Positions 1-19,806 of a stretch of DNA of 23,226 bases are shown piece by piece. Source of the stretch: a virus; IMG/VR virus record IMGVR_UViG_3300002100_000001, positions 1-23,226 of that record, one strand, 5' to 3'. Each line of letters starts with the position of its first letter. Within the stretch, counting starts at the first letter, position 1. The notes beneath the pieces were generated by a model. The model saw only the letters and a list, made by a program, of their open reading frames with translations. It made no database searches and was not told where the DNA came from. Position numbers and translations under genes: made by a program.

Positions 1-13
1 CGTGTACTGGCAT
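1..13 (-). CDS. possible start of the next minus-strand gene (partial)
   Basis: Only an ATG and three further codons (M-P-V-H) are visible before the window ends. The ATG is preceded on the minus strand by an A-rich stretch (TTAAAAAACAACT), which resembles the leader of other genes here, such as the tail tube gene. It lies about 100 bases downstream of the last fibre-like gene. Nothing can be said about function, and the call rests on position and leader alone. Confidence 0.25.
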
Positions 14-64
14 AGTTGTTTTTTAAGGTTTGATTACTTTGTTGAATATTGATAAAGGCGTACA

Positions 65-105
65 AGAGTGCGACGCAACCGGGTTAAATAGTAGTACTGC
101 ACTCT
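65..105. repeat. inverted repeat downstream of the last fibre gene
   Basis: AGAGTGC at 65-71 and GCACTCT at 99-105 are perfect 7-base inverted repeats around a 27-base spacer. They lie just past the stop codon of the fibre-like gene on the minus strand. Neither side is followed by a run of T, so this is not a textbook intrinsic terminator. It could still be a weak transcription end point or a protein-binding site. The 114 bases around it hold no other gene apart from a possible start at position 13. Confidence 0.35.
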
Positions 106-114
106 GGTTCATAA

Positions 115-660
115 TTAAACTGTTCTTATTTTGACAAATCCATCAGTGTGATAAAGTCCCCCGATGGGAATACCTTCCGCAGCAGCTTCTGTATCATTCG
201 CATAATTTTTCGATTCTTCTACAGTCAACACTCCTCCCACATCGTTCACGCCGAAATACCATTTTGTTCCATTCAGCGACCAACGGTATAAAACAGTAGG
301 AGAACCTTCATCGGTTTGTATGGTTTGCGCTGCCCCTAAATCAGTTACTCCTAATAACCATTTTGTTCCATTTCCTGCTGACTGAAGGATAGCAGCACCG
401 GAACCGCCAGAGCCGGAGGCGGGCAATAACGCCTCAAACGCATCTTTTAATTCCGTGAGGGTTCCTGAAAAAGCACTTCCTGAAATGGTTATATTATCAC
501 TGAGTGCCATACTCCTTACCTCTGAATCAATTCTGAATGAAACAGAAGTTGAATCCACCCATAAATGAACAGGGGAGGTAATAATTATCTGTTCCTCATC
601 GCTTTGGGAGTAGCTTAAATTCCCTTCTGCCGTTGCGGCTATGATGATTGTTTTTGACAT
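115..660 (-). CDS. short tail fibre-like protein
   Basis: This 181-residue protein has no catalytic motif and looks like a small virion appendage or fibre protein. A glycine/serine linker (residues 80-90) is followed by two copies of a short repeat, GNGTKWLLGVTDLG (97-110) and LNGTKWYFGVNDVG (129-142). Such repeats probably form beta structure. The end, with NYAND at 152-156 and GIPIGGLYHTDGFVKIRT at 163-180, resembles a short C-terminal module I recall from several phage and Bacteroidota surface proteins. The recall is from memory and was not searched. The gene starts 2 bases after the protease gene stops, so the two are likely cotranscribed. Other possibilities are a fibre chaperone or a baseplate accessory protein. 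Confidence 0.7.
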   Translation of the reverse strand: MSKTIIIAATAEGNLSYSQSDEEQIIITSPVHLWVDSTSVSFRIDSEVRSMALSDNITISGSAFSGTLTELKDAFEALLPASGSGGSGAAILQSAGNGTKWLLGVTDLGAAQTIQTDEGSPTVLYRWSLNGTKWYFGVNDVGGVLTVEESKNYANDTEAAAEGIPIGGLYHTDGFVKIRTV

Positions 661-662
661 CT

Positions 663-1376
663 TTATTTAAGTGTTTCTTTTATGATGCACACTACAGGGT
701 TTTCATTTGAAAGCCTCTGGAATGCTCTTTTTTGATTGATTGAATAATTTATAGTTGCTGTATCATTCTGAATTACTCCACGACTATTTGTGCCGTTCCA
801 CCAAATGCCTACTGAGTTATAAGAAACACCCATTATCGGAGCTATCCCGTTAGAACCAGGATTGTATTCATTTACTTTTTTACCATCTACCCACAGCGAC
901 TGATGATAAAGCCCTAGTGTGTGCCCTGCTTCGTGAGAAATGGCTTCTGCCACCGCTTTTTCTTTATTGCCCAATAGATGAGAGAACACAAAAGCGGGTG
1001 TATTATCACCCCATGAAAACGAACCGACAAAGGCAGTACCGCCTACTCCTTTAGGAAGAAATTCATTAGAACTTGTTACAACAATTCTTACTCTCTTTGT
1101 GGGATTGAATGAATTATAAACTGCTTCGTTGGTTGTTACTAAAATGTTGAAAGGTTTAAAATCATAACTCACTGAATCAACACAGTACTTTATTTGTTCA
1201 GGGGTCAGGGCTGAAGCGGGTGCAGTAAAGGGAGTATCATAAACGTTCCAGTTTGTGCTGTCTACATAGTAACCGTCAAAATCTAACAGAATCACTCCTT
1301 TAGGTACGTTAAATTTTAAGTCCAGTTTCGAGCAGGAAAGAAGGGTAAGGATTAATATGTAGGGTAAGTATCTCAT
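663..1376 (-). CDS. predicted lipoprotein zinc metalloprotease (metzincin)
   Basis: The 237-residue product begins with a short signal peptide ending in LTLLSC. The lipobox cysteine is C15, so the mature protein should be lipid-anchored. The zinc-binding motif HEAGHTLGLYH spans 148-158 and fits HExxHxxGxxH, with ligands H148, H152 and H158 and catalytic E149. The IMG at 181-183 (M182) fits the Met-turn of metzincins. The upstream ILLDFDGYYVD (29-39), DFKPFNILVTT (72-82) and GGTAFVGSF (112-120) segments resemble secreted Bacteroidota metalloproteases of the reprolysin-like type. There are no extra C-terminal domains, so this is a minimal catalytic unit. The start codon overlaps the previous stop as TAATG, tying the gene to the fibre operon. 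Predicted activity is cleavage of a surface protein or glycoprotein. Whether it rides on the virion or decorates the infected cell is unknown. Confidence 0.85.
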   Translation of the reverse strand: MRYLPYILILTLLSCSKLDLKFNVPKGVILLDFDGYYVDSTNWNVYDTPFTAPASALTPEQIKYCVDSVSYDFKPFNILVTTNEAVYNSFNPTKRVRIVVTSSNEFLPKGVGGTAFVGSFSWGDNTPAFVFSHLLGNKEKAVAEAISHEAGHTLGLYHQSLWVDGKKVNEYNPGSNGIAPIMGVSYNSVGIWWNGTNSRGVIQNDTATINYSINQKRAFQRLSNENPVVCIIKETLK

Positions 1377-1594
1377 TAATTAATGTCAATAGTGTCTACT
1401 GATGCTCTTGCTGTTATTGATGCTTGTTGTGCCCTGTATTCCTTTAAAACATCTTTTGCGTGATCTGCCAGTTTCTTTTTTGCAAACAGCGTTTTGGTTA
1501 GTCCGCTATCTGAAGTCCATGCGTAAACAGAAGCAAAAGCTTCTACTAACTCTGCTGAAATATTATCGGGTACTGATATAGTTATGTTTGCCAT
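1376..1594 (-). CDS. small protein of unknown function in the fibre operon
   Basis: I do not recognise this 72-residue protein. It begins with a short beta-like stretch (MANITISVPDNI) followed by an alpha-helical, basic middle part (about residues 14-58, with FAKKKLADHAKDVLKEY at 37-53). There is no signal peptide or membrane segment. It starts 3 bases after the 705-residue fibre gene ends and its stop overlaps the protease start (TAATG), so translation is probably coupled to both. A small virion or tail-assembly accessory is possible from context only. Confidence 0.7.
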   Translation of the reverse strand: MANITISVPDNISAELVEAFASVYAWTSDSGLTKTLFAKKKLADHAKDVLKEYRAQQASITARASVDTIDIN

Positions 1595-1597
1595 TGT

Positions 1598-3715
1598 TTA
1601 GTTATTTGCTATTATATTCCATTTACTGCCGTCACATTGAATCATCACATATTTGTACTGAGAGGACAGAACATAAGTCAATGCCCCGTCTATTGTCTCG
1701 CTTCCATTACCGTCTATAGTAACCGTATTGGCTGAAGCATCTGTTTTTTTAAACACGTATATTCTTGATGCTGCTGAAGACACAAGTGGTAGCAAAAAGG
1801 TTATATTACCTGCTGTTGCGTCGCCTAATAAAGTGAACCTATCGTTGGCTGCTACATTATAATTAGCCGTCTTGGATATTGTTGGGAAAATTGTACCGTG
1901 AGCCCCTTGCCGATCAAGTCTGGCAATGGTTCCATTGACATCACAGGCGGCTATTTCAGTAGTTGTGGAAGCAACGAAATAAGCAACAGGTATTTTGGGC
2001 GAATCGGTGAATGTTTTCGTGCCTGCAATAGATTGAGTACCGGTTGTCAGCACGCCACCAAATAGATTAGAAGCAGGCTGTAAGGTGAGGGTGCTTCCCG
2101 AAATGCTTGCGCCTTGCGCATTGGGAGAAGAGCCGATATTAGCTAAAGCGGTTACACCCTTACCGCCTCCGGTTGCAACTACTTTTCTTGTAGTTTCATG
2201 CCAGCTTGTACCGTCATAGAATAAGACTAAAACATCATCGGCGGCGGCTGTATAATCGGCACTGCCAGATAATAATATTTTAGCTGTTCCTGCGCCTCCA
2301 GAAGTATTATGTTTGATTGTTGGTGTACCTGTGAACAAAAGGATTATCCTGCTTCCTGCCTGCCAGTTCGTTGAGGTTATTGCGTTTATTTGGGTGTTGC
2401 CTGTGATTACAAACGTATTGCCATCATTGCCTAGCGTAAGGTCATTAGCGGCTGCTACGTTGGCTCCTTTGGCTTCTTCCCATCTGCCGCCTGTGATAGC
2501 TAAGTATTTATTATTTCCTGTAATTGTTCTATTCCCTGCTAGTGTGCCGTCTGTATTGTAAATGTTAGTGTCAGTAATGGATGGTAAAGAATAGAAACCT
2601 TTTGTACCTCCGCTATCCGTACCGTAATATTTTGAGTTTCCCGGAGTTGCGCTGTCGCCTGAAAGCTTTAGCCCTGAGCTATCCGATGTAATCGACATTT
2701 GTGTTTTTGCATCGGCAACTATGGAAGGTGTACCGTCATTATACGTAAAGTCTATCGTGTTGGAATCGGTTAAGATTGTACCTACATCATCCTGAGCATT
2801 CTCTGTCGTATAAGCTGCCGGTATCGTTGGTTTGTTAGATAAGTCGTTATAGTCTCCTGAACTGGCAACGGTGGCAAGACCCGTTATTTTTGCGGCTGCT
2901 ATTGAGTTAATAGAAATTTGAGGCGTGGCATCATCATAGGTAAACTCACTGCTTAAAATAGTTCCTACTGCGTCCTGCGCCTGTTCATCGGTGTAAGAAG
3001 TACCCCCTCCTATCTGCACATACGCTACTCCATCCCAATACCATGATGTACCTTCTGCTTTGGCTACGTAGATAATGTTTTCAAATCCTGTTGCGGGAAG
3101 GGAAGCTTCGTCATCAAAGAATCTAACAGGAATATTATAATAACCCCTGTCCGGTGTAGATTCAGTTCCATAGTATTTATAAACGTCTACATCTTGTTCA
3201 ATGTCTGTAGTAACAACAATAGGCGGTATCAGGTAGGCTGATAAATCCATGTCATCCAAAGCATACCCGTAGTAAGGTTCTCCTATCTCAAAACCATCAA
3301 TAGCGTTTACGTCTGATGTGGGGAAATATGACTTGTAAGGATCGCCAATCTTGTAAATAAAAAGCAGGTTGGAGCTATCAAAACCTACTGTCGCAAAGTC
3401 TATGGTTTGAAGGGCAATGCCTGCAAAGGCTTTGTTTGCAAATACATTCGTTCCCGGTGTGGTCTGTAAATCATCGGGTATCTGGTTATCCGCAATGCCT
3501 GACAGGTCAATGTTCTGTGAAGCAAAATAAAAGTAGGCTTCATCCTTTTCAAATCCTGCAATAGCGTTTACCTGTTCGCTTGGATTATAGGATAGGAAAG
3601 GATCGCCGATCTTTACAATTCTTAGCGTATTGTTTGCACTGACGCCGCAATCCTCAAAAGCAATATTCTCTCTTGCGATTACAATTGTGGGGCGATATGC
3701 AAAGATGTTAATCAT
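1598..3715 (-). CDS. large tail fibre / receptor-binding protein
   Basis: This 705-residue modular protein reads like a trimeric tail fibre. It has three kinds of internal duplication. KIGDP(F/Y)xSY modules occupy 35-72 and 122-159, YYGT modules 180-196 and 362-378, and (E/D)xAQDxVGTIL modules lie near 241-268 and 302-333. A segment around 430-510, with GNTFVITGN and DGTSWHETTR, and the C-terminal part 612-705, with TVTIDGNGSETIDG at 664-677 and DGSKWNII at 695-702, resemble beta-rich repeats found at the ends of many phage fibres. GTQSIAGTKTF (559-569) is also fibre-like. The start overlaps the stop of the FN3 protein as TAATG. It probably contacts the host surface; the receptor cannot be inferred. 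Confidence 0.82.
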   Translation of the reverse strand: MINIFAYRPTIVIARENIAFEDCGVSANNTLRIVKIGDPFLSYNPSEQVNAIAGFEKDEAYFYFASQNIDLSGIADNQIPDDLQTTPGTNVFANKAFAGIALQTIDFATVGFDSSNLLFIYKIGDPYKSYFPTSDVNAIDGFEIGEPYYGYALDDMDLSAYLIPPIVVTTDIEQDVDVYKYYGTESTPDRGYYNIPVRFFDDEASLPATGFENIIYVAKAEGTSWYWDGVAYVQIGGGTSYTDEQAQDAVGTILSSEFTYDDATPQISINSIAAAKITGLATVASSGDYNDLSNKPTIPAAYTTENAQDDVGTILTDSNTIDFTYNDGTPSIVADAKTQMSITSDSSGLKLSGDSATPGNSKYYGTDSGGTKGFYSLPSITDTNIYNTDGTLAGNRTITGNNKYLAITGGRWEEAKGANVAAANDLTLGNDGNTFVITGNTQINAITSTNWQAGSRIILLFTGTPTIKHNTSGGAGTAKILLSGSADYTAAADDVLVLFYDGTSWHETTRKVVATGGGKGVTALANIGSSPNAQGASISGSTLTLQPASNLFGGVLTTGTQSIAGTKTFTDSPKIPVAYFVASTTTEIAACDVNGTIARLDRQGAHGTIFPTISKTANYNVAANDRFTLLGDATAGNITFLLPLVSSAASRIYVFKKTDASANTVTIDGNGSETIDGALTYVLSSQYKYVMIQCDGSKWNIIANN

Positions 3716-7250: not shown

Positions 7251-10200
7251 TTAAAAATCTACTTTAACCTTACCGGCAAATATCACACTACTGAATAAAT
7301 CATTATTTTTTTTCAATTCTGCTACTGTTGCTGCTGTATTGAACTGTATAGCGTTTAATCTATCCAGTGACTGCCTTGCAACTGTCAAGGATTCTATGGC
7401 CGTTAACCTGATCCCGCCCATTTGACCCGCTAAAAGTTGTGCTGTTTCTTCCTGTATATTTTTGATGGCTCCCTGAAGGGAATTAGCATTACTATTTTGA
7501 GTGCCTAAAAAATCAATACCAGATACCTTTTGAAGCTTTTCAAACTGACTGTTCGCAGTTTCTATGATTGCATTAAACTTGTCGTTCAGGGCTTTTACTT
7601 CACTTTCTGTTAGCTCGCCGTTGCTGTCTGCTGATGCGGCAAATTCATCAAAGAATTTTTTTAATGGTTCTTCAAGGAATTTAAACTTCAGTGAATTGAG
7701 GATTGCTTTTTTCATCAAGTCCTCAAATGTTCCTGCAAAGTCCTTAGCGCTGTTTAACCCTTTGGCAAAGCCGTCTACTATTGAATCGGAAATAGAATCC
7801 GCTGTTGTGCCGGTTAATAATTCCTGCATCCTTTGCCTGTTCTCCAATAGCAAAGCATCAATGTCCGCTCCTTCTGCTTTTATTTTTTGTAGCTGTTCAA
7901 ATAAAGCCTTTGCATTATCGGTCAATTGACCTTTAGTAAATAGCTTTTCTATCTCTTCAAAGGTCTTACCTGCAAGGGAAGAAAATTCATTTACAACATC
8001 CGTTTTCTTACCAAATCCAAGCAAACTTCCCACAGCCCCTAAAAGTCCAGATCCGCCCGTTTTTTCGGTGTGCTGCCCTGAAATGAACTGCTCTTTTTGT
8101 AGCTTCTTTAAAAGTTCATCATAAGTAGAAGAAACAATTTTCTTTTGGTCTTCAAGCAATTTTTTTTGATCTTCTAAGGCTTGAAGAGTTGTCTTATTTA
8201 AAGTAACCTGTAATCTTTGACGCTCTCTGTATTGCTCATTGATTTCAAATTCACCTATTAATAATCTGGTCTGAAAGTCGGCCATTTCTTTTGCGGCCTG
8301 CTTTTTGGAATCAGACATTTCTTTAAACGTACCTACAATGCTGCTGATAGCTGCAATGCCGGCAGATATTATATTTCCGGTTGCTGCTATTTGCCCAATA
8401 CTATCACCTGTGGCCTGTGCTGCTTTTAAATCTTTCAGCCCCTGTGCAATGTTCTGCACTCCGCTTATCAGTGAAGCTACGGTTGAAAGGGATTTTCCCA
8501 GCTCACCGTTAAAAGAAGAAACGGCGGTAGAAAGGTTGCTAAAGGTGCTGCTTAAAGTCCCTGCACTTTTTATTATCTTATCAAGGTTCGTAGAGGCCTT
8601 GTCAGTGTTTATTATAAGTGATTCAAGTTGCTGGATAGCCGATTGTACGGCTGCAATCGTTTCGGGTGTAAGATCTGTCTTCACCTGTGTTTTAGGATCA
8701 ATGGTGAAGCCATCCGCAAGAATCTTTTTTAGTTCAGTAAGCCTGTCTTTTAAGTCCTTTTTGGTGAAGCGGATCAAATCCTGACCTAGCTTTTTAAACA
8801 GATCTGTTTGCCTTGCAAATGAGTTCTTTAAAGCTTCTGTTTCCTCTGATTGATTTTGCTGCAAAGCCTCTAACCTTCTGTTATATTCTTCTTCGGTCAA
8901 ATGCTCCCGTTCATTCTTCAAGGCTTTGAATAAATCCTGGTACTTTTTATCCAATACAGACTTAGCATCTGCAAAGTTGGCTGTTTGTTGCAACAGGTTT
9001 TTAAAGTCTTCAATCTGCTTATCGGTTTGCTGCTTTTGAAATTCAGCCATCGACTTCATCAGGGATTTGAACTTTTCCGCATCCCCAACGTTACCGATGC
9101 CTAAAGCAATTTTAGGAGTAAGCTTAGCGAATTCAGACCTTAAAAAATCTCCAAAAGAAGTAAAGCCTTTGAGTTGTTCAGCAAACATTTCATTGGCCTT
9201 TTCGATGCCTATTTGCTTTTTGGCTTCTTCGAATTGTTCAAAGATTGCCTTTTGCTGTTCCAGATTCTGTTTTAACTTTTCTGCATCCTGCTTAAGATCA
9301 AAGTTTTTCAGTTCTGTATTCCTTGCATCATTAAGCGTGTTGATATCCAGTTGACCTATTTTCTGGCCTCTGCCGGTCTGTTCAACTTTTTTATTGAATT
9401 CATCAATCTTTAAAATAGCCTGATCGTATTTTTCATTGATCTTATCCAGTTCTGATTGTTCTTTAACTAAACCGGATTGGGTGGCACCTCTTTTTAAATC
9501 TTCAATCAGTTGCAGTAAGTCCTTTCTTTTTTCAAGTATCTGGTTTAGCTTATTTTCTTCGGTTTGCTCTGATCGGATAGTAGATTTTGACTTTCCACGA
9601 ATAGCCTCTAATTCTTTCTCTTTAGCTGCTATCTGATCCTGAAAATTCTTATACTCTTTTGAATTGGTGGATTGTGCCGACTGTTGGTCTTTTAAGGCTT
9701 TTATTTCGTCTTCAATTACGGCAATGGTTCTTTTTTTGGCTTCTTGCTTTTTATCCTCCCCTTTTAATTCTCCATCCAAGACCTGGTTTACAACAGTATC
9801 TATCTCTTTTATTTTGTCTTCTTCAGCCTTAATTAATCTATCGAGTGCTTTATTGGCCCCCGTAAACAACTGAACATCCGTCCCTGTTGCAGTTTGTAGC
9901 TTATTGCTATTTGTTTGCTTTTGTAGCCTTAAGTCAACCAAGTTGGAAAGCGATTGCTGTTTTTTAGCATCTCCGGCCTCTTTTACTGCTTTTCGCTCTA
10001 AGGCTTTTATGTACTCATTTATGGATTGAGTGACCTGCTGTGTCTTGACATTTTCTAAGGAGATATTGCCTAAGTATTCAGGGGAAATACTGTTTATTTT
10101 CTGTATAGCCTGTAGTCGTTCGGATTTGCTCTTGGTTTCATCCTGTGCAACTTTTACAAGACTTTCCACTTCCAATCTTTCCTTTAAGACCTGCTTTTGA

Positions 10201-13200
10201 GATTCCGATCTAATATCATTTAGTAACTTTTGTTTATCAACCGCCTGATCTGTGGATTTATTCAAAATTAACAGCGCACTTACTACTGCAGCGATACCCG
10301 TAGCTACTGCCACGTAAGGATTAGCCAGCATAGTACGGTTTAGCAGCTTCATAGCAGCCTCACTTAACAGCATAGCCCTTAGCCGCAAGGTTTCTGCAAT
10401 GGTATAACCTTGTGTTACGCTGGTTTGAATCGCCTGTACTGCTGTTGTAGCAATTACCGCTGCTTTGTATGATCCATAGGTTACTACCAGAACTTTTAAA
10501 ATATCCAGCACCTTGTCGTAGTTCTGAACAAGGGAAGTGGCAGCACCAATAGCCCCTGCAAACACACCTTCGTTACTCTGACCAATGTTATTTAACATCT
10601 GGTTCCATGCGTCCGAAAGGTTGCTTAGTTGTCCGGTAAGCGTTTTAGATTGCGCCTCCATCAATCCTCCAAACTTTGAACCTTCAGCCGTCAGGTTTTG
10701 AAAGGCTTTTTCTATATCAGAGAATGACACCTTAATATTTTCACCACCCTGCGCTAATTGATCTGCTGAAAATTTGGTGACTTTTGCCAATTCTTCATAG
10801 ATCGGGATACCTCTTTGTGCAAATTGTTTTAAATCGACTAATGTTGCTTGCTGCTGCGTTTTGATCGTTCCAAACAGATAAGCGATTTCTCCAATCGGCG
10901 CACCAATACCTGCTGAAATATCGCCTAAACTTCTTAGCGTACCTTTTATTTTATCCGCTTCAATACCAAAGGCAAGTAATTGTTTTGTAGCGCCTGCGAC
11001 GTCTTTTAGTTCAAAGGGTGTGGTGGCTGCAAACTGTGTGACTTCAGCCATCAGCTTGTCAGCTTTTTCCTTACTACCTAGCATAGTCGTAAACGCCACG
11101 TTTAATTGCTGAAACTCACCTCTAACCCTGACAATATCTTTTACAAAGCCGGTAGCTGTGGTTAGCGTAGCATAAGAGGCAATAGCAACGGCCACCTGTT
11201 TTGCAAGGTTCTGCGTCTGCTCAAACTGGGAGTTTATTTTTTTGATTTCTCCATCCAGCCCACGGATATTATCAGCCATCTTCCGGCCTATGTCGCTTCT
11301 TCTATCCACCTCACTTAAAGCGGCGTACTGATTCTTTAATTCGTTAAGCTTAGCTACTTTTTCATTGAGTGAACCAGCGGCGTTTTGCGCTACCCGCTGA
11401 AATGCCTGGTTGATCCGTTCTACCTCCCCTTCTACCCTTTGAATATTAGCAACCAACCCCGCCCCGATATTTGAATTACGGTCTATTTCGGATAGTTCTG
11501 CAAATTCTTTTTTAAGCCTGTCCAGTTCTGATAGCTTCTCATTTAACGAACCTGTTTTAATGGGAATATCTACAGGAGGCAGTTCAAGGGAAGTTCGAAG
11601 GCGTTGAATATCCGCTTCCACTGCTGTCGTATCAAGTCCTTTAGCTTTAAGTTCGATGGTTTGCGCTTCAAGGTTTGAGATTTCCTGTAAAAGTTCGTTG
11701 TAGGTCTTTTGAAAGGCTTCATCATTTAAGGATGCAGTGCCGGTCAGGTGAAAGTCGTTTAACTGATCCAGCTTTTGCTGTGCCCTGTCCAGTGATGCGG
11801 TCAACGAAGTAGTGTCAATGTCACCGATCTTTAAACTGATGGCTGCTGATTTAAGGCCTTCTACCTTGTTTCTAAGAGAGGCAAAGGCGGCATTAAAGGA
11901 AGTGTCGTCTATACCATCCACCTTGATCTGAAAGCCTGCGGAAGCGTCTAAAAGGCGCTGTTTTAAAGAAGAAATATCCCGATCCAAGACCGTTGTATCA
12001 ACACCTTTGGCTTTTAGCTCAATGCTCTGTGTTTCCAGCACCTTTACTTCGTCGGAAATAGTCTGGTAGCCTTTTTGAAACGCCTCAATATCAAGGGAAG
12101 CAGAAGTCTTGATTGAGATGTTTTCAAGGCTTGCTACTTGCGTTTTGATCCTGTCCAGCGAGCTTTGAAGGACAGAGGTATCTATACCGTTTAATTTTAG
12201 TTCAAATGTGGTGTCCTGAAGCTGAGAGATACGGGCTTTTAAGTCATCGAAGGACTTTAAAACGCTTGTTGTATCAACGGGGCGCACCCTTATATTCACC
12301 TCGGTTCCATCTACCGCTTTCACCTGATTTAATACGCTATTCAGGGCTTTGGAAAGTTCAGTAAGATTCACGGTTCCCTGCCTGAGTTCTACAGGCTGCG
12401 CTTTAATTTCTTCGATCTTTTTTTGAACCTTCGTTAAGGCAACATCTAACTGAGTGGTATCAATTCCTTTGGTTTTAAATTCCAAAGACTGCGCTCTTAG
12501 GTTTTCAAGGTGTTTCTCTAAAGTGATAAGTGAGGAATCGTCAACCTTAACCTTAAACACTTCATCAGATAAACTATCCACCTTTGAACGAATGGCGGTA
12601 ATATCACGGTCTAGGGTAGTGGTATCAATTCCCTGCGCTTTTAACTGAATACTCTTTGTTTCCAGCACTTTTATTTCATCTGTAATGGTTTGGTAACCTC
12701 TCTGGAATGCGTCAACATCCAAATTAGCAGAGGCGTTTATAGATATATTTTCAAGGCTTGAAACCTGTGTTTTGATTTTATCCAGTGAACCTTGCAGGGA
12801 TGCGGTATCCACGCCACTAACTTTTAGTTTGATGGCCGTGCTTTGAAGTTGGGCAATACGGGCTTTAAGATCGTCAAAAGACCTTACAACGGTTTCTGTA
12901 TTTACCGGGAGGATATTAATGGCTACCCGTGTGCCGTTGATCCGCTGCGCCTGTTCCAGCACATTGTTTAAAGCTACGGACAGCGGGGCAAGATTGACCG
13001 CGCCTGCCCTGAGTTCTACGGGTTCAGATTTGATCTTATCTATTTTTTCCTGAACCTTTACTAAGGCTGCATCTAATTGGGTCGTATCTACTCCCGCTGC
13101 TTTAAATTGCAGGGATTGGGCCTTTAAGGTTTCCAGCCGCTTTTCAAGTGTGGCAAGCGAAGAATCGTCAACTGTGATCTTCAGGGCCTGCCTTTGGATG

Positions 13201-14021
13201 CTTGCCGCCTGCGTGCGGATGGCAGTAATGTCTTTTTCAATTTGGGTAGTATCAATTCCTTCTGCTTTCAGTTGGATTTTTTCACTTTCCAACACTTTTA
13301 AGCTTTCCTGCAAGCGGTCATATTGCTGCTGGAACTGCGTTATATCTAAAGTGGCAGCACTATTTAAGGTCAGCCCTTTTAAGGTTTCAAATTCCTTCTT
13401 TGCTTTATCTATGGCAGCGGTCAGGGAAGTAGTGTCTACTCCTTTTACTTTCAGGTCTAGTGCGGTTTGGTTCAGTGAATCAATCCTTGTCTGAAGGCTG
13501 GTAAAGGCTTTTTCAACCGATGCGGTATTAATGCCGCCTACTTTTAGTTGAAGTGATTGACCGCTTATCTTGTCGAACTCTGTTTGTACGGACTCAAGGG
13601 CGTTTAACAGCGGGGAAACATCCACCTTGCCTGTTTTTAAATCTAAGGGTGAATTTTTTATGCGTTCAATTTCTGCTAAAACCTTATCCAGAGAGGATGT
13701 TAACTCCGAAGTATCAAAGCCTTTTGATTGCAGTTGTAGACTTTGGGATTTAAGGGCTTGTATTTGACTTTGCAGGGCGCTTAAATGCTGCACCTGTGAC
13801 TCAATATCCTTATCCATGCCACGGATAATTCCAGCGCTTTGTAAAATACTTTGTGCGATCTGTTTTTGACCCTGCGCCGCCTGCTGTTGTATCTGGATTT
13901 GTTTTTTGGTCGAATCCTGTATCTGGCTGGTGATCTTCTGCATATCGGTATCGAAATCCGTAGTATCAATACCTGCTTTCCAAAAAAGCGAACCTTCGCC
14001 GCCTGTTATATCAATTGCCAT
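7251..14021 (-). CDS. tape measure protein
   Basis: The product is 2256 residues, very long for a tape measure, and is the ruler that fixes tail length. The start (GSLFWKAGIDTTDFDTDM at 10-27) is typical. Residues ~76-815 are coiled-coil repeats built on a 209-residue unit. Residues ~940-1130 carry the conserved TP901-type core (FAATTPFELKDVAGATKQLL, then FAQRGIPIYEEL). Hydrophobic stretches lie near 1170-1200 and 1232-1255, probably for DNA entry through the cell envelope. The rest is charged coiled coil, rich in K, E and Q. No peptidoglycan hydrolase motif was recognised. It begins 3 bases after the frameshifted chaperone reading frame ends. At about 0.15 nm per residue the tail would be near 340 nm (family rule, inference). 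Confidence 0.95.
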   Translation of the reverse strand: MAIDITGGEGSLFWKAGIDTTDFDTDMQKITSQIQDSTKKQIQIQQQAAQGQKQIAQSILQSAGIIRGMDKDIESQVQHLSALQSQIQALKSQSLQLQSKGFDTSELTSSLDKVLAEIERIKNSPLDLKTGKVDVSPLLNALESVQTEFDKISGQSLQLKVGGINTASVEKAFTSLQTRIDSLNQTALDLKVKGVDTTSLTAAIDKAKKEFETLKGLTLNSAATLDITQFQQQYDRLQESLKVLESEKIQLKAEGIDTTQIEKDITAIRTQAASIQRQALKITVDDSSLATLEKRLETLKAQSLQFKAAGVDTTQLDAALVKVQEKIDKIKSEPVELRAGAVNLAPLSVALNNVLEQAQRINGTRVAINILPVNTETVVRSFDDLKARIAQLQSTAIKLKVSGVDTASLQGSLDKIKTQVSSLENISINASANLDVDAFQRGYQTITDEIKVLETKSIQLKAQGIDTTTLDRDITAIRSKVDSLSDEVFKVKVDDSSLITLEKHLENLRAQSLEFKTKGIDTTQLDVALTKVQKKIEEIKAQPVELRQGTVNLTELSKALNSVLNQVKAVDGTEVNIRVRPVDTTSVLKSFDDLKARISQLQDTTFELKLNGIDTSVLQSSLDRIKTQVASLENISIKTSASLDIEAFQKGYQTISDEVKVLETQSIELKAKGVDTTVLDRDISSLKQRLLDASAGFQIKVDGIDDTSFNAAFASLRNKVEGLKSAAISLKIGDIDTTSLTASLDRAQQKLDQLNDFHLTGTASLNDEAFQKTYNELLQEISNLEAQTIELKAKGLDTTAVEADIQRLRTSLELPPVDIPIKTGSLNEKLSELDRLKKEFAELSEIDRNSNIGAGLVANIQRVEGEVERINQAFQRVAQNAAGSLNEKVAKLNELKNQYAALSEVDRRSDIGRKMADNIRGLDGEIKKINSQFEQTQNLAKQVAVAIASYATLTTATGFVKDIVRVRGEFQQLNVAFTTMLGSKEKADKLMAEVTQFAATTPFELKDVAGATKQLLAFGIEADKIKGTLRSLGDISAGIGAPIGEIAYLFGTIKTQQQATLVDLKQFAQRGIPIYEELAKVTKFSADQLAQGGENIKVSFSDIEKAFQNLTAEGSKFGGLMEAQSKTLTGQLSNLSDAWNQMLNNIGQSNEGVFAGAIGAATSLVQNYDKVLDILKVLVVTYGSYKAAVIATTAVQAIQTSVTQGYTIAETLRLRAMLLSEAAMKLLNRTMLANPYVAVATGIAAVVSALLILNKSTDQAVDKQKLLNDIRSESQKQVLKERLEVESLVKVAQDETKSKSERLQAIQKINSISPEYLGNISLENVKTQQVTQSINEYIKALERKAVKEAGDAKKQQSLSNLVDLRLQKQTNSNKLQTATGTDVQLFTGANKALDRLIKAEEDKIKEIDTVVNQVLDGELKGEDKKQEAKKRTIAVIEDEIKALKDQQSAQSTNSKEYKNFQDQIAAKEKELEAIRGKSKSTIRSEQTEENKLNQILEKRKDLLQLIEDLKRGATQSGLVKEQSELDKINEKYDQAILKIDEFNKKVEQTGRGQKIGQLDINTLNDARNTELKNFDLKQDAEKLKQNLEQQKAIFEQFEEAKKQIGIEKANEMFAEQLKGFTSFGDFLRSEFAKLTPKIALGIGNVGDAEKFKSLMKSMAEFQKQQTDKQIEDFKNLLQQTANFADAKSVLDKKYQDLFKALKNEREHLTEEEYNRRLEALQQNQSEETEALKNSFARQTDLFKKLGQDLIRFTKKDLKDRLTELKKILADGFTIDPKTQVKTDLTPETIAAVQSAIQQLESLIINTDKASTNLDKIIKSAGTLSSTFSNLSTAVSSFNGELGKSLSTVASLISGVQNIAQGLKDLKAAQATGDSIGQIAATGNIISAGIAAISSIVGTFKEMSDSKKQAAKEMADFQTRLLIGEFEINEQYRERQRLQVTLNKTTLQALEDQKKLLEDQKKIVSSTYDELLKKLQKEQFISGQHTEKTGGSGLLGAVGSLLGFGKKTDVVNEFSSLAGKTFEEIEKLFTKGQLTDNAKALFEQLQKIKAEGADIDALLLENRQRMQELLTGTTADSISDSIVDGFAKGLNSAKDFAGTFEDLMKKAILNSLKFKFLEEPLKKFFDEFAASADSNGELTESEVKALNDKFNAIIETANSQFEKLQKVSGIDFLGTQNSNANSLQGAIKNIQEETAQLLAGQMGGIRLTAIESLTVARQSLDRLNAIQFNTAATVAELKKNNDLFSSVIFAGKVKVDF
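11577..13796 (-). repeat. 209-residue tandem repeats inside the tape measure gene
   Basis: The glycine of the (G)xDT motif recurs at residues 101, 310 and 519, exactly 209 residues (627 bases) apart. The sequence VDDSSL begins at 284 and again at 493. Flanking segments match too: SFDDLKARI recurs in the second and third units and LENISI likewise. A fourth, partial copy (about residues 700-815) lacks the first part of the unit. Each unit contains several shorter LK-x(2)-G(I/V)DTT-x-L elements, a motif also present once near the N-terminus (GIDTTDF, residues 17-23). The copies differ clearly in DNA, so the duplications are not recent. Confidence 0.85.
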
Positions 14022-19500: not shown

Positions 19501-19806
19501 ATGCCCGATCAAATACACTGCCCCAAATGTAATTCTACTCAACTAACGGCGAACAAACAGGGATTTTCAGCCGGAAAAGCGGCGGCAGGTGCAATGCTTA
19601 CAGGTGGTGTAGGAATACTGGCAGGAACTATCGGGTCTGGTAAAGTAAAAATCACTTGTTTAAACTGTGGACATGAGTGGAAACCAGGAGAACATAATAA
19701 GCCTGTTCAGGACTTAAATAAACCGCTTACATCGGGTGGTAAAATAGCGTTGATCTTTCTTTTGATTTGTATTATAGCAGTGGTGGTGATTATTGTGAGG
19801 CGTTAA
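19501..19806 (+). CDS. zinc-ribbon membrane protein (possible moron)
   Basis: The product is 101 residues. Two CxxC pairs (C7/C10 and C53/C56, in CPKC and CLNC) make a zinc ribbon split by a glycine-rich hydrophobic insert (GKAAAGAMLTGGVGILAGTIG, split here as residues 25-45). A transmembrane helix occupies about 80-99 (ALIFLLICIIAVVVIIV) and the last residues are RR. Proteins of this pattern occur in phages and bacteria; their function is not known to me. It points opposite to the late genes and has its own promoter-like sequence, so it may be expressed during lysogeny. It converges with the head morphogenesis gene with a 34-base gap. Confidence 0.8.
   Translation: MPDQIHCPKCNSTQLTANKQGFSAGKAAAGAMLTGGVGILAGTIGSGKVKITCLNCGHEWKPGEHNKPVQDLNKPLTSGGKIALIFLLICIIAVVVIIVRR

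Follow-up and report, generated by a model that had tools for sequence, protein, structure and literature searches.

A lipid-anchored metzincin encoded next to the tail-fibre region of a probable Bacteroidota phage: relatives, predicted localisation and possible role

Why does a phage encode a lipid-anchored protease among its tail-fibre genes? The question is raised by a viral contig fragment of 23,226 nucleotides (IMG/VR record IMGVR_UViG_3300002100_000001), referred to here in its full length as the window, where a gene on the minus strand (663-1376) encodes a protein of 237 amino acids. This protein starts with MRYLPYILILTLLSC-SKLDLKF, a short hydrophobic signal peptide (residues 1-15, 1332-1376, minus strand) ending in the lipobox LLSC (residues 12-15) with Cys15 as the residue predicted to be lipidated; lipoboxes are also found in its viral relatives. 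Only about 11 residues separate Cys15 from the first strand of the catalytic domain, as judged from the sequence and the structural model, and the protein ends shortly after that domain. The preliminary description of this DNA had listed an HExxHxxGxxH zinc site at residues 148-158, an IMG Met-turn and a lipobox ending at Cys15, and all three are present in the translation, as HEAGHTLGLYH (residues 148-158, 903-935, minus strand), PIMG (residues 180-183, 828-839, minus strand) and LLSC. It had also proposed translational coupling to the fibre operon by TAATG. The overlap is real (1378-1374, minus strand), but its partner is a 72-amino-acid ORF (1376-1594, minus strand) that separates the protease from the fibre-like gene, whose stop is at 1598, and not the fibre-like gene itself. 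The latter (1598-3715, minus strand, 705 amino acids) matches BppL_N at the cut-off, shows a weak depolymerase match in its C-terminal part and has a homologue in the sister phage described below. Promoter scans gave results at chance level.

The identity of the protein as a lipoprotein metzincin is secure. The Pfam family Reprolysin_3 (PF13582) was matched with 24.1 bits for a cut-off of 22.4, whereas PHROGs holds no family for the protein and all NCBIfam matches were below cut-off. An alignment of 60 sequences, comprising the window protein with viral and cellular sequences, indicated that the zinc ligands His148, His152 and His158, the catalytic Glu149 and Met182 are invariant in all 60. 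The AlphaFold2 model (pLDDT 84.9 and about 95 around the active site, pTM 0.80) was superimposed on P-I snake venom metalloproteinases, adamalysin II, ADAM-8 and archaemetzincins with Z scores of about 10 to 11.5 over roughly 125-150 residues, the best alignment having a Z of 11.5 and an rmsd of 3.5 over 145 residues, and the best solved match in Foldseek was ADAM-8 (2.5e-5). Fold and zinc-ligand conservation had both been named beforehand as the points on which the proposal could fail; the predicted fold is that of a metzincin and the ligands do not vary. A chance motif is ruled out by the Reprolysin_3 score, the relatives with up to 52% identity, the invariant residues and the predicted metzincin structure. 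The protein is almost certainly a metzincin-fold lipoprotein and very probably an active protease.

Cellular contamination could be discarded on the basis of the structural genes found upstream of the fibre region (portal, major head, head-morphogenesis, tape-measure and tail proteins) and of a syntenic sister phage (L126/L127), which has kept the gene order and shares 45-85% identity with the window in common genes. The phage is a siphovirus-like phage of Bacteroidota, its host probably belonging to the family Chitinophagaceae, and no integrase or lysogeny gene was seen in the window fragment. In the sister phage, the fibre gene is directly followed by a homologue of the 181-amino-acid gene that comes after the protease in the window (115-660, minus strand), after which the contig ends. 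The 72-amino-acid and protease genes are both absent at this site, and no protease homologue was found anywhere in the whole 30-kb sister-phage record; absence from the same site indicates that the protease is an accessory gene. The site is occupied in L126 (14683-14785) by a short truncated copy of the start of a 148-amino-acid gene, which suggests a recombination scar. A prophage of Chitinophagaceae whose tail genes are related encodes a spanin-like lipoprotein and a GH19 endolysin after its fibre region, which makes a fibre-to-lysis interval the probable location of the window gene.

Several other features of this genome were recorded. Both viral contigs stop within about 120 bases after the same 181-amino-acid gene (window 1-115 and L126:15231-15286), perhaps marking a hard-to-assemble or variable region, and the 181-amino-acid protein itself contains an internal repeat (NGTKWLLGVTDLG / NGTKWYFGVNDVG). 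The tape-measure protein (7251-14021, minus strand) has 2256 amino acids, with an N-terminal half made of repeated segments (KGVDTTxL...), compared with 1914 amino acids in the sister phage. A zinc-ribbon-like protein with a membrane span, encoded inside the head module but in reverse orientation to the structural genes (19501-19806, plus strand), is likely to be the product of another cargo gene. The G+C content is 0.385 for the protease gene, 0.418 for the window and 0.395 for the portal gene, a difference too small to argue for transfer.

A single-sequence scan of viral contigs found no relatives of the protein; 42 other viral loci were recovered by a profile search of IMG/VR, and only with the three-sequence alignment A1 as query. 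The best identities to the window protein reach 52% in viral contigs and Chitinophagaceae genomes. Most viral relatives of the lipoprotein type have 280-340 amino acids and keep the zinc ligands, and a thrombospondin-3 (TSP3) spacer, a calcium-type repeat, is visible between lipobox and catalytic domain in the viral lipoproteins L004-L041 (scored as TSP_3 in L012). The window protein and L042 (222 amino acids) are devoid of this spacer. Tail-sheath genes occur in some carriers, indicating that the metzincin gene crosses tail types; many carriers are large, contractile-tailed phages. A second metzincin is present in some phages (L018, L022, L032 and the record of L042); in L018 (9593-12494) and L032 (9635-12495), a TSP3 lipoprotein and a 479-amino-acid secreted metzincin flank a conserved 144-amino-acid protein with a signal peptide, possibly a protease set with its partner or inhibitor. 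The protein had been called unusual and stripped, which does not hold for this phage alone: dozens of viral contigs encode such lipoproteins, a 222-amino-acid viral relative is equally short, and a 199-amino-acid lipoprotein-plus-metallopeptidase had been reported in Maribacter phage Molly (PMC8776804). Among 50,697 public phage records, only Synechococcus phage S-CRM01 has a homologue at E ≤ 0.01, and a distant one. The relatives are under purifying selection, with dN/dS of 0.10-0.22 in 9 of 10 pairs, dS being saturated in the tenth.

Homologues were also present in 87 of 296 Chitinophagaceae genomes, mostly as secreted proteins of about 530 amino acids. The relation to secreted Bacteroidota enzymes that had been suggested at the outset is borne out by this family. 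The one member tested, L046, has a PPC region scoring slightly below cut-off together with a type IX C-terminal sorting domain; both are missing from the window protein. A branch of the tree with support 100/99.9 separates this secreted family from a group made of the window protein, 24 viral lipoproteins and four Lacibacter proteins (L166-L169). The Lacibacter proteins are TSP3 lipoprotein metzincins of about 310 amino acids, encoded at a conserved chromosomal locus where no phage genes are found, and their grouping with the viral ones indicates that the lipoprotein type is not phage-specific. The window protein is a short variant of this phage/Lacibacter clade. Since the 479-amino-acid viral proteins, one 363-amino-acid viral protein and, in the first tree, cyanophage proteins are placed outside the lipoprotein clade, phages probably took up the metzincin domain several times. 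The first tree pairs the window protein with L042, a union of two long branches that was given no weight. The long branch of the window protein might also be read as the trace of a decaying or chance gene without function, which is extremely improbable with its zinc ligands and Met182 intact, a high-confidence model and purifying selection acting on its relatives.

The cellular homologues and the chromosomal lipoprotein form in Lacibacter lend some weight to the idea of a cargo gene serving the lysogen or infected cell, namely an ordinary secreted-type protease for nutrition or matrix turnover captured from a Lacibacter-like host lipoprotein, and the gene is indeed dispensable between sister phages. 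We nevertheless hold this to be unlikely in view of its position inside a late structural operon in the window, a fragment in which neither an integrase nor a lysogeny gene was seen, and of the many carriers that are large, contractile-tailed phages.

Where such a lipoprotein would end up is suggested by the residues following the lipidated cysteine. Surface lipoproteins of Capnocytophaga carry the signal C-X-K-(D/E)2, which varies between genera of the phylum (PMC5080379). We scored K/R at +3 with D/E at +4 to +7 after the cysteine in the phage proteins and in two sets of controls from Chitinophagaceae genomes, SusD homologues (surface) and BamD (periplasm-facing). This pattern was found in 28 of 29 SusD, 0 of 28 BamD and 21 of 23 distinct script-parsed N-termini of phage lipoproteins, the control being a narrow one made of a single family on each side, with a few BamD rows that are possibly misparsed ORFs (L212, L216). 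An unparsed type (L035/L036) reads CNRNKSVD and has no acidic residue of the pattern, while in L038 the script read one cysteine too early and the N-terminus, examined by eye, fits the SusD-like pattern. A first background set of lipoproteins, made by pattern, consisted mostly of ordinary signal peptides with a cysteine and was replaced by SusD and BamD. In the window, the putative surface-export signal CSKLD (residues 15-19, 1320-1334, minus strand) combines a lysine at +3 with an aspartate at +5; with one acidic residue only, it departs from the canonical Capnocytophaga signal. The earlier argument that a lipid anchor speaks for a cell-surface role is strengthened by this SusD-like signal after Cys15, and from these residues we consider it likely that the protein is exposed on the host outer membrane.

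The genes surrounding the protease in its carriers are of several kinds. In many of them (L004, L011, L012, L015, L018, L025, L026, L030, L032, L038 and L039 are examples) it is surrounded by long genes of fibre-like or other structural kinds; a similarity of the neighbours was shown to tail families for L025 and L026, and for L030 to a family of virion structural proteins. Together with the place of the window gene in a fibre operon, this arrangement would suit a protease of the virion, borne by the tail tip or the fibres, that cuts surface proteins or matrix at entry; help for entry or escape through the matrix is what the authors of PMC8776804 proposed for Molly. A signal peptide and a lipobox, though, would direct the product across the envelope of the host and so away from the cytoplasm, where tails are assembled, and the SusD-like signal after the cysteine and the absence of a fused fibre domain add to making this reading unlikely.

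Directly beside the protease, L016, L024 and L026 encode small membrane proteins and a lipoprotein that has a membrane span at its C-terminus. These lipoproteins (L016:2519-3061, L024:2050-2592, L026:10838-11413), which have a lipobox, adjoin the metzincin and lack a good family match, may in our reading of their sequences be u-spanin-like. A GH19 endolysin is located within 4 kb of the protease in L026 and L038. The enzyme could accordingly be imagined as a lysis helper, a late outer-membrane protease weakening the outer envelope, capsule proteins or adhesins for complete lysis and dispersal, and the proximity of spanin-like, holin-like and GH19 genes in these carriers, as well as the lysis genes that follow the fibre region in a related prophage, are compatible with it. 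Yet lysis cassettes in the related prophages L164 and L165 work without the protease, the gene is absent from the sister phage and in several carriers a long distance separates it from the lysin gene, which leaves this role rather unlikely. About ten carriers (L005-L010, L013, L014, L019-L021, L023) have neither fibre nor lysis genes beside the protease.

Three roles had been suggested in the preliminary description, namely helping infection, freeing progeny and blocking other phages. The reading that we prefer is that of a late, surface-displayed protease trimming the surface proteins of the infected cell for progeny release and/or exclusion of rivals, to which we give a probability of roughly 0.45. 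Under this reading, the fibre-to-lysis interval contains an accessory (cargo) gene for a reprolysin-type metzincin with no room for a blocking prodomain. Its position and the TAATG overlap suggest expression together with the late tail genes; lipidation at Cys15 and the SusD-like signal would then place the enzyme in the outer leaflet of the outer membrane of the host, where it could cleave surface proteins of the infected cell. Progeny would not be trapped on receptors or matrix at lysis, and rival phages might be unable to adsorb. That the substrates are the host's own surface proteins is, taken separately, somewhat better than an even bet. Against this late surface protease stand the single acidic residue of the window signal in place of the canonical K-(D/E)2, the ten or so carriers without adjoining fibre or lysis genes, the distant S-CRM01 relative located among head genes and the chromosomal lipoproteins of Lacibacter; moreover, the sequence is just as compatible with a role in nutrition or matrix degradation.

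With relatives in dozens of other phage contigs, the lipoprotein metzincin is a tool to which phages resort repeatedly, probably to trim proteins of the host surface. More tentatively, and on balance doubtful, Bacteroidota phages may have recruited metzincins repeatedly, drawing on two subfamilies or more, and tagged them anew as surface-displayed lipoproteins that shave receptors and other proteins from the infected cell, a receptor-destroying, superinfection-excluding class undescribed in phages. If this is right, phages use the surface-lipoprotein export route of their host to place a protease outside the infected cell, as an enzymatic counterpart both of receptor-destroying enzymes and of superinfection-exclusion surface lipoproteins, and such enzymes would make the search for the protein receptors of Bacteroidota phages tractable.

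Comparison with known systems places the protein more precisely. It has in common with the M12B adamalysins/reprolysins of snake venoms and ADAM proteins the predicted fold, the HExxHxxGxxH motif and the Met-turn, but comes from a prokaryotic virus, has no disintegrin parts and shares only 11-19% identity with them. Members of the M12B family feature an N-terminal prodomain with a cysteine switch. The window protein has neither, the 11 or so residues between lipid anchor and catalytic domain leaving no place for a prodomain; it is thus a reprolysin-like domain and not a full ADAM or snake venom metalloproteinase. The secreted reprolysin-like metallopeptidases of Chitinophagaceae have a homologous catalytic domain, with up to 52% identity, but differ by a non-lipoprotein signal peptide, by PPC and type IX sorting domains (in the one tested) and by their separate branch. 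The Lacibacter TSP3 lipoproteins share the lipobox, the reprolysin-like domain and the clade of the phage proteins, and differ by their chromosomal locus and by the spacer. The S-CRM01 protein (AEC52989.1) is phage-encoded and has a homologous catalytic domain (32% identity), but it is a protein of 636 amino acids with an annotated PPC domain and no lipobox, encoded among head genes and placed on a separate branch.

A Listeria metzincin of phage origin (PMC8235301) is reported to act, as proposed for the window protein, at the cell envelope, and is accompanied by a TIMP-like lipoprotein; there the lipoprotein is an inhibitor-like partner and not the protease. The closest parallel in design is the protein of phages Molly and Colly (PMC8776804), likewise a short phage protein joining a lipoprotein signal to a metzincin domain, with a lysine and acidic residues after the cysteine. 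The Colly_1 copy (QQO97377.1), with the N-terminus CSKEE and located 3 kb from a tail-fibre gene, is matrixin-like (PF00413), whereas the window protein is reprolysin-like. Only the HExxH region of the two aligns, profile comparison aligns the signal peptide only, and membership of the window protein in the Molly/Colly family was rejected for want of significant similarity beyond these two parts. Since this matrixin-type lipoprotein is unrelated to the window protein, Bacteroidota phages have acquired surface-type lipoprotein metzincins at least twice. A phage lipoprotein metallopeptidase is already known from the remark on Molly; the reprolysin-like clade, its spread and its surface signal are new as far as our searches show, and the single remark on one Maribacter phage belongs to a wider pattern.
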